The notes under the pieces are model-generated. The model searched no databases. It was not told the DNA's origin and was given only the letters and a program-made list of their open reading frames with translations. DNA of 64,000 bases from Chlorobium sp. Its GTDB lineage: Bacteria > Bacteroidota > Chlorobiia > Chlorobiales > Chlorobiaceae. The stretch lies in NCBI GenBank assembly GCA_005862225.1, contig SZXV01000002.1, positions 124,001-188,000 on the forward strand, in the 5' to 3' direction. Shown here piece after piece: positions 42,393 to 46,326 of this stretch. A program made the position numbers and the translations under genes. Numbering within the stretch: position 1 is the first letter of the stretch; the number at the start of each line of letters is the position of its first letter.

Positions 42393-42761
42393 ATGACACA
42401 TCATGAACCTGATTGCCTCTTTTGCCGCATCGTGCGCGGCGAAATACCCGCCAAAATTGTTTATCGCAACGAGCATGTTGTCGCATTCAGGGACATCTCG
42501 CCCGTAGCCCCCCAACATGTTCTTATCATTCCGGTCGCCCACATCGCCTCACTCAGCGACCTCAGTCCTGAAAATGAAGCAATTGCCGGGCAAATTCTTC
42601 TTGCCGCAGGCACCGTTGCCGAAATCCTCGGCATCAAAGAGTCCGGCTACCGGTTGGTCTTTAACAGCGGTCGCGATGCGATGCAGAGCGTCTTTCACAT
42701 CCATGGACATCTGATTGGCGGAGCAGCGATGGGTTGGCCTCCGTTTCCAGCTCAAGCATAA
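42393..42761 (+). CDS. HIT-family (HinT-like) purine nucleotide hydrolase
   Basis: A 122-residue protein with the histidine-triad motif H-I-H-G-H-L-I-G-G near the C-terminus and the start C-L-F-C-R-I-V-R-G-E-I-P-A-K-I-V-Y typical of HinT/PKCI-like proteins; Cys 9 and Cys 12 may help bind zinc. HinT proteins hydrolyse AMP-linked phosphoramidates and related adenylates. It lies 14 bases before the TIR gene and both could be transcribed together. That is worth noting because TIR enzymes also act on adenine dinucleotides, although HIT genes are widespread and the link may be chance. Confidence 0.93.
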   Translation: MTHHEPDCLFCRIVRGEIPAKIVYRNEHVVAFRDISPVAPQHVLIIPVAHIASLSDLSPENEAIAGQILLAAGTVAEILGIKESGYRLVFNSGRDAMQSVFHIHGHLIGGAAMGWPPFPAQA

Positions 42762-42775
42762 TTTGAAACAGATTC

Positions 42776-44230
42776 ATGACCGATATTTTTATAAGCTATT
42801 CCCATAAGGATGAGGAGCGTGTCAAGCCAATTATTGAAAAGCTTGAAAAGCGCGGGAGGAGTGTTTTCTGGGACAGGCATATTCCGGCAGCTCAGACTTG
42901 GCACAATTATATTGGAGAAGCACTTAATACTTCGAGTTGTGTGCTTGTTGTCTGGTCTCGCCATTCAATTATTTCCGAATCAGTTATTGAAGAGGCTGTA
43001 ATTGCGAAAAAAAGAGGTGTGCTTGTTCCACTTCGTATTGATGATATTGACCCCCCGTTGGGGTTTAGTCTTATACAATCACCAAATCTTGCTGACTGGA
43101 AAAACAATAGTGCTCATCCGGCATTTCAATTACTTGTTGATGCGATTGAGACTAAATTATCTTCATCAACTCCGCAAACGATAACATCCACAAAGACATC
43201 GGCACCAGAACTGGTTTTAGAGCGAAATGAAGTGCCTGCTCCTGCTCCTGTATTGCCATCGCTCAAACCAGAGCGCCAACTGAAGGTGAGTGGATATAAA
43301 AGTCTGCTTGCTCAAATACCAAAGCAACAGGCGGTGATCGCTGTTGCGGCACTCATGGTGGTGATTCTTGTTGTTATGCTTGTGATGAGCAATAAACACA
43401 AGCAGTTTCCGGTTGAATCAGCAGTTCCTGTTATTCCTGCTGCCTCTTTGGCGCCTTTGTCAAACTTTGTGCTGATTCGCGGTGGAGAGTTTATGATGGG
43501 GAGCCCGTCAACTGAACCGAATCGGTCGCCCGATGAAGGGCCACAGCATCAGGTGAGATTGAGTGACTTTTATATGGGCAAATATGAGGTCACGGTAGCC
43601 GAGTTCAGGAAATTTGTGGAAGCCAATGCATACCTTACTGATGCGGAAAAAGGAGGTGACAGCAAGAACTGGCGTCATGATGTGTCCGGGAATATGCGGA
43701 TACAGGCAGAGGAGAATCATCCTGTGATAAGAGTCAGTTGGAATGATGCAAAAGCGTATTGTGACTGGATGTCGAAACAAACAGGGAAGAAGTTCCGTTT
43801 GCCCACGGAAGCGGAGTGGGAGTATGCGTGCCGCGCAGGAAGCACAATGCCCTTCAATACTGGAAAAAACCTGACGACCGATCAGGCAAACTATGACGGC
43901 AACTATCCGTACAACAACAATCCTAAAGGTCAGTACAGATCAAATACTGTGCCTGTTGAGAGCTTTGCACCAAATGCCTGGGGGTTGTATAATATGCATG
44001 GCAATGTATGGGAGTGGTGCCGCGACTGGTATGGAGAAAAGTATTATAAGGAATGCAAAGCAAAAGGCGTTGCCGAGAATCCTGAAAACACGGCACCGAC
44101 TTCGGCCCGTGTGCTTCGTGGCGGGAGCTGGATCTACCACGCCGAGTACTGTCGGTCGGCGAATCGCTACAGGCGCTCGCCCGACGCCCGTGACGACGAC
44201 TTTGGCTTCCGCCTGGTCTTCGTCCCGTAG
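42776..44230 (+). CDS. TIR - transmembrane - FGE/C-lectin-fold protein with a DGR-type variable C-terminus
   Basis: The 484-residue protein has three parts. Residues 1-125 form a TIR domain (I-F-I-S-Y-S-H-K-D-E at 4-13; the putative NADase glutamate is E73 in S-E-S-V-I-E-E). A Pro/Ala linker and a transmembrane helix (about 198-217, V-I-A-V-A-A-L-M-V-V-I-L-V-V-M-L) come next. Then follows an FGE-sulfatase/SUMF fold (about 235-484; F-R-L-P-T-E-A-E-W-E-Y-A, G-N-V-W-E-W-C-R-D-W-Y). Of the two active-site Cys of true FGE, only one remains (C459), so a ligand-binding rather than enzymatic role is likely. The last 40 codons are described separately. TIR is predicted cytoplasmic and the FGE domain outside. 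Confidence 0.9.
   Translation: MTDIFISYSHKDEERVKPIIEKLEKRGRSVFWDRHIPAAQTWHNYIGEALNTSSCVLVVWSRHSIISESVIEEAVIAKKRGVLVPLRIDDIDPPLGFSLIQSPNLADWKNNSAHPAFQLLVDAIETKLSSSTPQTITSTKTSAPELVLERNEVPAPAPVLPSLKPERQLKVSGYKSLLAQIPKQQAVIAVAALMVVILVVMLVMSNKHKQFPVESAVPVIPAASLAPLSNFVLIRGGEFMMGSPSTEPNRSPDEGPQHQVRLSDFYMGKYEVTVAEFRKFVEANAYLTDAEKGGDSKNWRHDVSGNMRIQAEENHPVIRVSWNDAKAYCDWMSKQTGKKFRLPTEAEWEYACRAGSTMPFNTGKNLTTDQANYDGNYPYNNNPKGQYRSNTVPVESFAPNAWGLYNMHGNVWEWCRDWYGEKYYKECKAKGVAENPENTAPTSARVLRGGSWIYHAEYCRSANRYRRSPDARDDDFGFRLVFVP
44111..44230 (+). other. Putative DGR variable region (VR) at the 3' end of the TIR-FGE gene
   Basis: Residues 446-484 (V-L-R-G-G-S-W ... G-F-R-L-V-F-V-P) match the usual DGR variable repeat of FGE/C-lectin targets, where Asn-rich sites vary. 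The sites I453, Y454, H455, A456, Y458, R464, Y465, R467, D470, A471 and D473-D475 are all encoded by codons ending in C (ATC, TAC, CAC, GCC, CGC, GAC). These are the products expected when adenines of AAC template codons are replaced. The GC-rich tail GGCTTCCGCCTGGTCTTCG resembles an IMH site. No template repeat or reverse transcriptase is in the window. Confidence 0.75.
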
Positions 44231-44272
44231 TTCGGGGGCAGTTTTCCGGCTTTGCTTTTGAGCGAGAGTGCA

Positions 44273-44335
44273 GTTACAAAATTTTGGTGAGCTGCAGCAA
44301 GGGACGCAGCGCAGCGCACCAAAATTTTGCGTAAC
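44273..44335. repeat. Long imperfect palindrome downstream of the variable region
   Basis: GTTACAAAATTTTGGTG at 44273-44289 pairs with CACCAAAATTTTGCGTAAC at 44317-44335 (two extra bases in the right arm). GCTGC/GCAGC extends the stem inward, leaving a loop of about 10-15 bases. It lies 43 bases after the TIR-FGE stop. DGR targets often carry a hairpin just behind the variable region, but this one is longer than the known short cruciforms. It could also be a dispersed palindromic repeat or a terminator. Confidence 0.85.
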
Positions 44336-44351
44336 CAGCGACAACAGAAAC

Positions 44352-44376
44352 GACCGCCTTGGGCGGTCCGATTTTT
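44352..44376 (+). terminator. Intrinsic terminator after the TIR-FGE gene
   Basis: GACCGCC / GGCGGTC (7 bp, loop TTG) is followed by CGATTTTTG. It would end the hit/TIR-FGE transcript before the RCK-RyR gene, unless read-through occurs. Confidence 0.75.
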
Positions 44377-44421
44377 GGGGCATGAATTCATCGAACGTTC
44401 AAAACTTATAAGGTTATTATA

Positions 44422-46326
44422 ATGAATAAGTTGAGCAATCCGATAAATTGGATACGCAGGGGTAAATGGATAAAGCGGCTCGATAATGGGGGGATCGTGA
44501 TTCTCGGCATATTGCTGCTGGGTTCAACGGTGCTGTGGATGTTTTCCATGGATGAAGCTTTTCTCTCCCGATTTCGCAAGTCTTTATATTATTCTTTTCA
44601 ATTTATTACTCTTGGCAAGGATGTCGATGGCGTGAATGATCCGTGCCTGCGACATGCCCTGTACGTACTCCAGTTTGCCATTCCATTATTTGCTTCGGGC
44701 ACTTTTGTTTCACAGTTGTTTCGCAATCGTCTTGTACCCTTTTTGAAAAGAGTGGAGGTTAACGCCCTCACCAATCACCATGTCATTATCGGCTATGGCG
44801 CATTCGGGCAGGCGTTAGCGAAAAAGCTTGTGGACAAAAAGCGTGTTGACAAAAAGAATGTTGTCGCCATTGATCTTCTTGATCCTTTCGGACTTGATGA
44901 CACCAACCCCATCGTGCTCTGCCATGATGCCTTGCATACAGACATCGGGAAAATAGCAAATCTGCAACATGCCGAATGTCTCTATCTGCTTCTTCCAGAG
45001 GAACGGGACAACCAGTCAATTCTGAAAAACATTCTTGCCTCCAACTCTCTGAAAGAAGATCTGCGGATATTTGTTCGTACAGCATCGGGTGATATGCAGC
45101 GCCTTTGTGTGGACTGGGTTGGGCTCAAGGGAATTCACTCTCAAGAATTTGATATTCGTGCTTTGAATCCGTTTGACATTGTTGCCCGTGGCATTGTCAA
45201 TACCTATGCCCCCGATGTCTATGCGCCAACCGACAGAGTTGGCCCTGTTGCTCAAACGATCATGGTGGTTGGTACGTCTGAGGCGGCAAAGGCGCTTCTG
45301 GTAAGGTTTGCCCGTATCGGTGTTTTTTCGCCCAAAGGCAAGCTGCACGTGGTTTGGGCAGGAGACGGCGTGGAGGATGCATTCCGGCAGCTTAAAGCTG
45401 TCTATCCGGCGCTTGGAGCCGACTTTAGCTCCGTCAACGATTGGGGAGGCGGAGATAAAACTTCCAGAGAATATTTTGAGAGCGTTTTGCCGCCGATCAA
45501 GCTTACTCTTCTGAATATTCCTGCGGCGGAAGCTATTCGAAAACAGTCCATTGCTGTGATGGACAATACACGATGGCCATCGGTTATTTATGTGTGCCAC
45601 GATTCGGATATTCGCAATCTGGTCGAAGCTCGCGATCTTCAGGCCGCTTTGTGCATGGATAAGGAGGTGATCCGCACAACCGGGAAAGGCCAGCAGCAGC
45701 GGTTGATTCTGGCGGTGCAAGGCAAGGCGGATCTGGGAATTGCGGAAGATGCCGATTTGCCAGCGTTACAGAATCTGCCATATCGCATTAAGGAGATAAG
45801 TATTGACTTCATGTTTGCTAAAACAGTTGCGGAAGACCGTGCTGATGAAATTGCAAAAGGTTATTTTGACGTTTACGCAGAATCTCATAAGGTCGAAGAT
45901 AAGGACTGGAATCATCTGAAACTTTTTGAGAAAGAGTCGAATCGTGATCTTGCCGATCATCTGGCAATGAAAGCCCGCTATGCAGGAATTGGGGCTGAAA
46001 AGGTTACTGCTTCTGTTTTTTACGGAAATGCCACTCTTTCAAATGACGAGTGCAAGCTGATGGAGGAGGCACGTGCAGAGCTGATTGCCATGGAGCAGCG
46101 AAGGTACCGGGCATTTATGTTCATGAATGGATTTATTCACGGGAGCCATCCGGTGGAATATGATAATTCTCAAAAGAGCTGGGGTAAGAAGCTGGATCAA
46201 TATCTTCGGGTGAATGACACGCTGCTTCAGGAGAACTTGCCTGAAGATGAACAAAAGAAAGATGACGATATCGTCGACTATTCACTACAGGTGTTGCGGT
46301 TAAAAAATCTTGCTGCGCCAAGATAA
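44422..46326 (+). CDS. Channel-like membrane protein: two TM helices - RCK/TrkA-N domains - RyR domain
   Basis: The 634-residue protein begins with helix 1 (about 24-41) and helix 2 (about 79-99). A segment between them, Y-Y-S-F-Q-F-I-T-L-G-K-D (56-67), sits where a K-channel pore loop and filter would be, but without the usual T-V-G-Y-G. A Rossmann RCK domain follows (G-Y-G-A-F-G, 124-129), then a second one (M-V-V-G-T-S-E-A-A-K-A-L-L). The C-terminal region (about 540-625, E-Q-R-R-Y-R-A-F-M-F-M-N-G-F, L-P-E-D-E-Q-K-K-D-D-D) fits the RyR domain of PF02026 type. Such TrkA-N/RyR proteins are known but not characterised. Confidence 0.85.
   Translation: MNKLSNPINWIRRGKWIKRLDNGGIVILGILLLGSTVLWMFSMDEAFLSRFRKSLYYSFQFITLGKDVDGVNDPCLRHALYVLQFAIPLFASGTFVSQLFRNRLVPFLKRVEVNALTNHHVIIGYGAFGQALAKKLVDKKRVDKKNVVAIDLLDPFGLDDTNPIVLCHDALHTDIGKIANLQHAECLYLLLPEERDNQSILKNILASNSLKEDLRIFVRTASGDMQRLCVDWVGLKGIHSQEFDIRALNPFDIVARGIVNTYAPDVYAPTDRVGPVAQTIMVVGTSEAAKALLVRFARIGVFSPKGKLHVVWAGDGVEDAFRQLKAVYPALGADFSSVNDWGGGDKTSREYFESVLPPIKLTLLNIPAAEAIRKQSIAVMDNTRWPSVIYVCHDSDIRNLVEARDLQAALCMDKEVIRTTGKGQQQRLILAVQGKADLGIAEDADLPALQNLPYRIKEISIDFMFAKTVAEDRADEIAKGYFDVYAESHKVEDKDWNHLKLFEKESNRDLADHLAMKARYAGIGAEKVTASVFYGNATLSNDECKLMEEARAELIAMEQRRYRAFMFMNGFIHGSHPVEYDNSQKSWGKKLDQYLRVNDTLLQENLPEDEQKKDDDIVDYSLQVLRLKNLAAPR

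Follow-up and report, generated by a model that had tools for sequence, protein, structure and literature searches.

Could a TIR protein and an RCK-RyR membrane protein, encoded side by side in a Chlorobium genome, form one path from receptor to channel? The question is raised by positions 42,776 to 46,326 of the window, the whole 64,000-nucleotide stretch of Chlorobium sp. that was analysed (GenBank assembly GCA_005862225.1, contig SZXV01000002.1, positions 124,001 to 188,000). Two intact open frames lie there on the forward strand, as do all window features placed below. Gene A (42776..44230) encodes a receptor-like protein of 484 amino acids (aa) with a TIR domain, a transmembrane (TM) helix and an FGE/C-lectin domain, and gene B (44422..46326) encodes a 634-aa 2TM-RCK-RCK-RyR-like protein. 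The best reading of the pair is a Thoeris-like TIR-to-channel system, as a putative function. We put at about one half the probability that the two genes act together in signalling from TIR to channel, with defence against phage or some other external threat as the likeliest role. A more specific version, in which a single-pass TIR receptor hypermutated by a diversity-generating retroelement (DGR) makes a cyclic ADP-ribose (cADPR) messenger that gates a RyR-bearing RCK channel, is offered tentatively.

RCK-RyR genes adjoin TIR genes in distant bacteria

In seven other sampled genomes, which range from Chlorobium-like to Lachnospiraceae, an RCK-RyR gene stands beside a TIR gene. The Chlorobium-like genome G173 has, at another locus, a gene B ortholog (57% identity) immediately 3' of a TIR-TM-Sel1 gene. 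The first four classical RCK-RyR genes in the phylum sample, from Ignavibacteriales (L097), Sphingobacterium (L098) and two Bacteroidota (L099, L100), all adjoin a TIR gene; the TIR partner carries Fib_succ_major on L097 and WD40 on L098 and L099. Two more cases, Sphingobacterium humi (L117) and a Lachnospiraceae contig (L135) on which the RyR gene is truncated by the contig end, came from a scan of 84,980 species. TIR calls in most scanned contig loci were made with a custom hidden Markov model (HMM), and Pfam confirmed those of L097, L098, L099 and L135. At two further loci (L103, L104), the distance between TIR and RCK-RyR genes is 4-6 kb. The preliminary description of this locus had named a lack of linkage in all other genomes as what would speak against the pair; instead, linkage was found in seven.

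TIRs were counted in six of these genomes; each holds 1-7, and the sole TIR of G216 is the linked one. The crude chance of TIR adjacency in those six genomes is ~1e-17, with shared ancestry ignored. As a control, 0/18 RCK channels without RyR adjoin a TIR, a figure that partly reflects genome content because 15/18 of those genomes hold no TIR at all. Likewise, none of four AAA-RyR loci of the same genus has a TIR neighbour. Two broader explanations were rejected on these grounds: that RCK channels in general are TIR-linked, and that all RyR proteins are, the latter also because membrane helix-free RyR proteins of Chromatiaceae occur in another setting.

Domain architecture of the two proteins

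Gene A begins with a TIR_2 domain (residues 4-110; 42785..43105; Pfam E 1e-19). Its putative catalytic residue, E73 (42992-42994), falls in an alignment column where 8/8 other TIRs also have Glu, and we infer that the domain is active as an NAD-consuming enzyme. A PDB sequence search with this TIR alone gave no match, and comparison with PADLOC models returned weak ThsB matches only. The hydropathy scan identified one strong hydrophobic helix, at residues 186-204 (43331..43387; hydropathy 3.3), which corresponds to helix 183-206 in the model. The remainder is an FGE-sulfatase (PF03781)/C-lectin-fold domain (residues 230-481; 43463..44218; Pfam E 6e-71). This domain is predicted to lie outside the cytoplasm because the TIR needs cytosolic NAD. 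The FGE part of the model has a mean pLDDT of 53, too poor for mapping variable residues.

Gene B encodes two N-terminal membrane helices (~residues 15-41 and 74-100; 44464..44721, from the model), followed by RCK1/TrkA_N (44767..45111) and a second Rossmann domain, RCK2 (45244..45717), assigned from the model and from alignment to KtrA, TrkA and CASTOR rings. Pfam places TrkA_N above its cut-off at residues 121-223, where GxGxxG (G124, G126, G129) and D151 make a nucleotide site likely. Solved homologues bind NAD/ADP, and GsuK was crystallised with NAD and ADP. The AlphaFold model of gene B (11-sequence alignment, pLDDT 73.5) comprises a two-helix membrane part, two Rossmann/RCK domains and a helical C-terminus. 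Its neighbours in Foldseek and VIA-align are GsuK (top), TrkA, KtrA, CASTOR/DMI1 and BK gating rings. The protein would presumably be a tetrameric tandem-RCK membrane protein that forms a pore. Compared with the counterpart in the sister genome G301, gene B has a dN/dS of 0.37 and is under purifying selection. It has no PADLOC match, and no match was found on plasmids or in viral contigs.

The C-terminus (residues 465-634; 45814..46323) was assigned to the RyR R12 type by profile comparisons and alignment. Pfam PF02026 matches neither gene B nor its ortholog there at E values up to 10. An HMM built from the RyR domains of 31 relatives gives E 1e-7 for gene B and 3e-8 for the G173 ortholog, against 0.01 for the best of 1000 shuffles, and hhalign gives 94.7% for the RyR-like end of gene B. 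The family profile, which includes the window protein, matches animal RyR R12 repeats at 1e-31 and also 3nrt, a putative bacterial RyR-like structure. Gene B can be aligned over its whole length with 2TM-RCK-RCK-RyR proteins of the classical kind, including the motifs NRxxADH...K...G and ME-xRR-Y. The VIA-align rows show no RyR end of gene B, and one domain alone can fill such rows. Judged by profile and alignment, the C-terminus of gene B is a RyR domain, real but divergent.

The anatomy given in the preliminary description was borne out: a TIR with an apparently intact Glu, a TM helix and a variable lectin-fold outer domain in gene A, and a two-helix membrane protein with RCK domains and a C-terminal RyR domain in gene B. 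The structure prediction that it proposed as a check recovers, for the RCK part, the fold of GsuK, TrkA, CASTOR and BK rings.

RyR-type (PF02026) domains bind TIR-made 2'/3'cADPR (2026 preprint PMC13232231). Six of the eight phage PF02026 homologues tested there bound ligand, and two that were characterised further did so with nanomolar affinity. The earlier suggestion that a RyR domain may bind cADPR isomers is supported by that preprint, which is the source for binding of TIR-made isomers, rather than by the window sequence.

Diversification of the putative receptor tip

The last 133 bases of the gene A region (44101..44233) are a DGR variable repeat, so the word 'variable' in the preliminary description applies in the strict sense. 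Its template lies at G000:C4:270453-270585 (L040:6454-6586) of the organism's own genome, G000. Between repeat and template, 16/31 template adenines are changed, compared with 4/102 other bases (Fisher p 5e-9). The template adjoins a reverse transcriptase gene (RVT_1, L040:5376-6437, with GNLTSQ and YMDD) and an HRDC accessory gene, as found in a search of the own genome. Because the adenine-biased repeat matches a template ~100 kb from it, gene A is, by sequence, a trans target of a distant DGR. The search returned three other close variable repeats of the same template; the targets of this DGR also include one NACHT-FGE and one TM-FGE protein. In G197, of the same genus, a TIR-FGE target lies in cis to a DGR.

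A stem-loop (44277..44329; folding z -3.9) follows the variable repeat of gene A. Stem-loops alike in shape follow both repeats beside the reverse transcriptase (z -4.9 and -4.1), and their stem sequences differ. The locus occurs in one sister genome only, G301, from which gene A is absent; DGR diversification of the gene A tip is shown by the adenine-specific sequence pattern.

The cassette itself (L040:1618-8080; G000:C4:265.6-272.1 kb) comprises the NACHT-FGE target, the HRDC accessory gene, the reverse transcriptase, the template and the TM-FGE target. More variable repeats or FGE copies occur in G000 at C3:58.5k, C4:61.6k and C4:80.5k. Another RVT_1 gene (G000:C4:535-541 kb, L041) is flanked on both sides by FGE genes (frames of 975 and 981 aa), and is probably a second DGR. 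The variable repeats of gene A (44101-44233) and of L042 have three non-adenine differences from the template in common (T13C, G90T, T112C), as if both had last been copied from an older template version.

Counter-evidence and alternative readings

Several observations weigh against a TIR-to-channel module. An intrinsic-terminator-like hairpin with a T run (44352..44378), kept in G301, separates gene A from gene B. G301, the closest relative, has the gene order HIT - B - SIS - RibH, with no gene A. The TVGYG K+ filter is absent between the helices of gene B (~residues 47-66) and in its relatives, as judged by alignment. Gene B, like its close relatives, keeps one of the four ligand residues of RyDEP/RyR3. 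At other loci, the linked TIR frame on L100 (G034) is broken by a stop, and L102, L105, L109 and L113 have an RCK-RyR gene and no TIR within the locus.

Gene B of G301 is intact and shows 87% identity in the part that was compared first. Other TIR genes occur in G301, though none in gene A's place, and homology to the window resumes within the stem-loop region 3' of the variable repeat; gene A was either lost in G301 or gained in the window lineage. The presence of gene B alone in G301, the terminator-like site and the TIR-FGE genes that occur in the genus without gene B, e.g. in G197, would fit two genes that are neighbours only, gene A being one of several DGR targets that landed beside an unrelated RCK-RyR housekeeping or stress gene. 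The TIR linkage in Ignavibacteriales, Sphingobacterium, other Bacteroidota, Lachnospiraceae and a second Chlorobium-like genome argues against such a chance landing, as does the lack of TIR linkage for RCK channels without RyR, and we consider it rather improbable. Because gene B occurs without gene A in G301 and a terminator-like hairpin lies between the two, we argue for a loose module with an exchangeable sensor, not an obligate operon. The sensor is taken as the exchangeable part because relatives pair the effector with TIRs bearing Sel1, WD40 or other C-lectin-like modules.

The HIT gene directly upstream of gene A (42393-42761), which the preliminary description had suggested might act on signal nucleotides, was rejected as a component. 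HIT is present in 65/65 genomes of the genus, and together with the upstream CNNM gene it forms a set of conserved neighbours. Downstream of HIT, six of the seven stretches examined (of 30 loci) reach a FeoB-like gene; the remaining one, which the contig end truncates, reaches a FeoA-like gene. Since HIT occurs genus-wide and has FeoA/FeoB-like genes next to it elsewhere, it is a housekeeping gene outside the system.

The ligand residues H75, W78, H100 and D117 of RyDEP/RyR3 correspond to Q559, Y562, N598 and D614 in gene B, positions that were placed via relatives carrying the EHxRW motif and thus indirectly relative to RyDEP. G301 is the same as gene B at these positions, G173 has R, Y and N, and D614 is kept in all three. 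As the pocket residues are changed, the ligand of the window protein may differ from cADPR, or the RCK sites may sense it, as in GsuK. The second possibility leads to a reading in which the TIR merely consumes NAD+, the RCK Rossmann site of gene B gates the pore on a fall in NAD(H) or a rise in ADP-ribose/ADP, and the RyR-like part is structural. Retention of GxGxxG and D151 in RCK1, the nucleotides crystallised with GsuK as the closest solved fold, and the decayed RyR ligand residues all favour it. Alignment of the other TIR-linked members shows an unaltered set of RyR pocket residues and a weaker RCK1 motif, which makes the RyR end look like the common sensor; we regard NAD-depletion sensing as unlikely.

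Phage RyR-domain proteins (RyDEP) degrade or sequester cADPR (PMC13232231). Gene B could by analogy be a brake that is anchored in the membrane and, as a sponge or hydrolase of the RyDEP kind, shields the cell by removing what the TIR makes; the persistence of gene B without gene A in G301 would suit such a role. The catalytic His of RyDEP, however, is Q or R in gene B and its relatives, and a sponge needs neither a channel-type membrane part nor a gating-ring body. We give this reading very little credence.

A putative receptor-messenger-channel path

In the TIR-to-channel reading, gene A would be a single-pass receptor whose C-lectin tip, outside the cytoplasm, is rewritten by the DGR in trans, and therefore cells of one population would carry different binding specificities. 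Ligand binding would cluster the receptor and switch on the cytoplasmic TIR, which, judging from its family and conserved Glu, would make an ADP-ribose or cyclic-ADP-ribose-type nucleotide from NAD+. The RyR-like domain of gene B, and perhaps also its RCK Rossmann sites, would bind this nucleotide, and nucleotide-bound gene B would open the pore and leave the cell depolarised or arrested. The messenger model of the preliminary description is plausible by analogy because RyR-type domains bind TIR-made 2'/3'cADPR (PMC13232231). Its anatomy, linkage and RyR kinship hold, its HIT component does not, and the loss of pocket residues, the missing K+ filter and G301 weaken it.

The pair resembles Thoeris, in which a ThsB TIR cyclase activates a ThsA effector through cADPR isomers, in its two-gene logic of a TIR with the catalytic Glu kept and an effector with a domain type able to bind cADPR isomers. 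Unlike in Thoeris, the putative effector is a 2TM-RCK-RCK-RyR membrane protein, not a ThsA of the SIR2-SLOG or Macro-TM kind, and the TIR is predicted to sit in the membrane and to carry an outer domain that a DGR diversifies. Gene B shares its two-helix pore-type part and RCK gating-ring fold with GsuK, MthK, BK and CASTOR/DMI1 channels but lacks TVGYG and has an extra C-terminal RyR domain. Its end belongs to the same domain family as phage RyDEP, an R12-domain cADPR glycosidase/sponge (PMC13232231). Unlike that counter-defence protein, whose ligand is TIR-made 2'/3'cADPR, gene B belongs to the host, is a membrane protein and combines RCK domains with an altered pocket.

DGR-diversified putative antigen sensors combine a C-lectin/FGE variable domain with a defence-type domain, TIR among the partners (PNAS 2024, PMC10907252; eLife 2020, PMC7159879), and gene A is like them in that its variable domain is diversified by a reverse transcriptase and a template repeat. 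The sensors of those papers are STAND and MoxR-vWA/VMAP ternary systems, unlike the A/B pair; a single-pass TIR receptor beside an RCK-RyR protein appears in neither paper, and neither mentions RyR. DGR-diversified TIR sensors and TIR-effector pairs were already known.

PADLOC assigned no known defence system to the pair. The preliminary description knew of no system of this make-up, and our literature search likewise found no paper in which a 2TM-RCK-RyR protein is paired with a TIR gene. An earlier prediction is possible in Burroughs et al. 2015, which reportedly discusses RyR, SLOG and TIR domains as nucleotide-linked.

Other RyR-bearing loci

AAA-ATPase proteins of ~880-905 aa that end in two RyR domains are encoded in 15 genomes of the genus (L067-L096, L186-L189). 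In Oscillospiraceae, a similar gene (L121:6048-8912) comes after two TIR genes. In Actinomycetota (L104:4903-9725), an AAA/MoxR-RyR gene and a 2TM-RCK-RyR gene are divergently oriented. The RyR proteins of Chromatiaceae (Thiohalocapsa, Halochromatium and others; L110-L134) lack membrane helices and are encoded in another genomic context; some of their genes lie next to a small OsmC-like gene.

Downstream of the G173 pair (L066:1706-6917) are a DUF4231/SLATT-like membrane gene, a second TIR and an nSTAND1-WD40 gene. The first of these has an N-terminal 'GVTGH...ISPLAKGADR' stretch that is SLOG-like by eye, and a similar 'GITGHRD' gene follows RCK-RyR on L103. In Marinilabiliales (L106:1-9674), a DUF4062-NACHT-TPR gene lies near two oppositely oriented RCK-RyR genes; DUF4062-NACHT is a TIR-like NADase type (PMC13174449).

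Implications

TIR-made cADPR isomers, ligand binding by RyR domains and DGR-generated receptor diversity were previously separate findings, and the recurrence of the pair in distant bacteria suggests that they may belong to one receptor-messenger-channel path. For bacterial RyR domains, the pair suggests a ligand that can be put to direct test, and it is relevant to a long-standing question, namely if and by what means cADPR affects ryanodine receptors. If true, the proposed system would amount to a cADPR-to-RyR-channel pathway in prokaryotes with receptor diversification of a somatic type, a bacterial counterpart of an adaptive membrane receptor, and it would hint at the origin of cADPR responsiveness in animal RyR channels.

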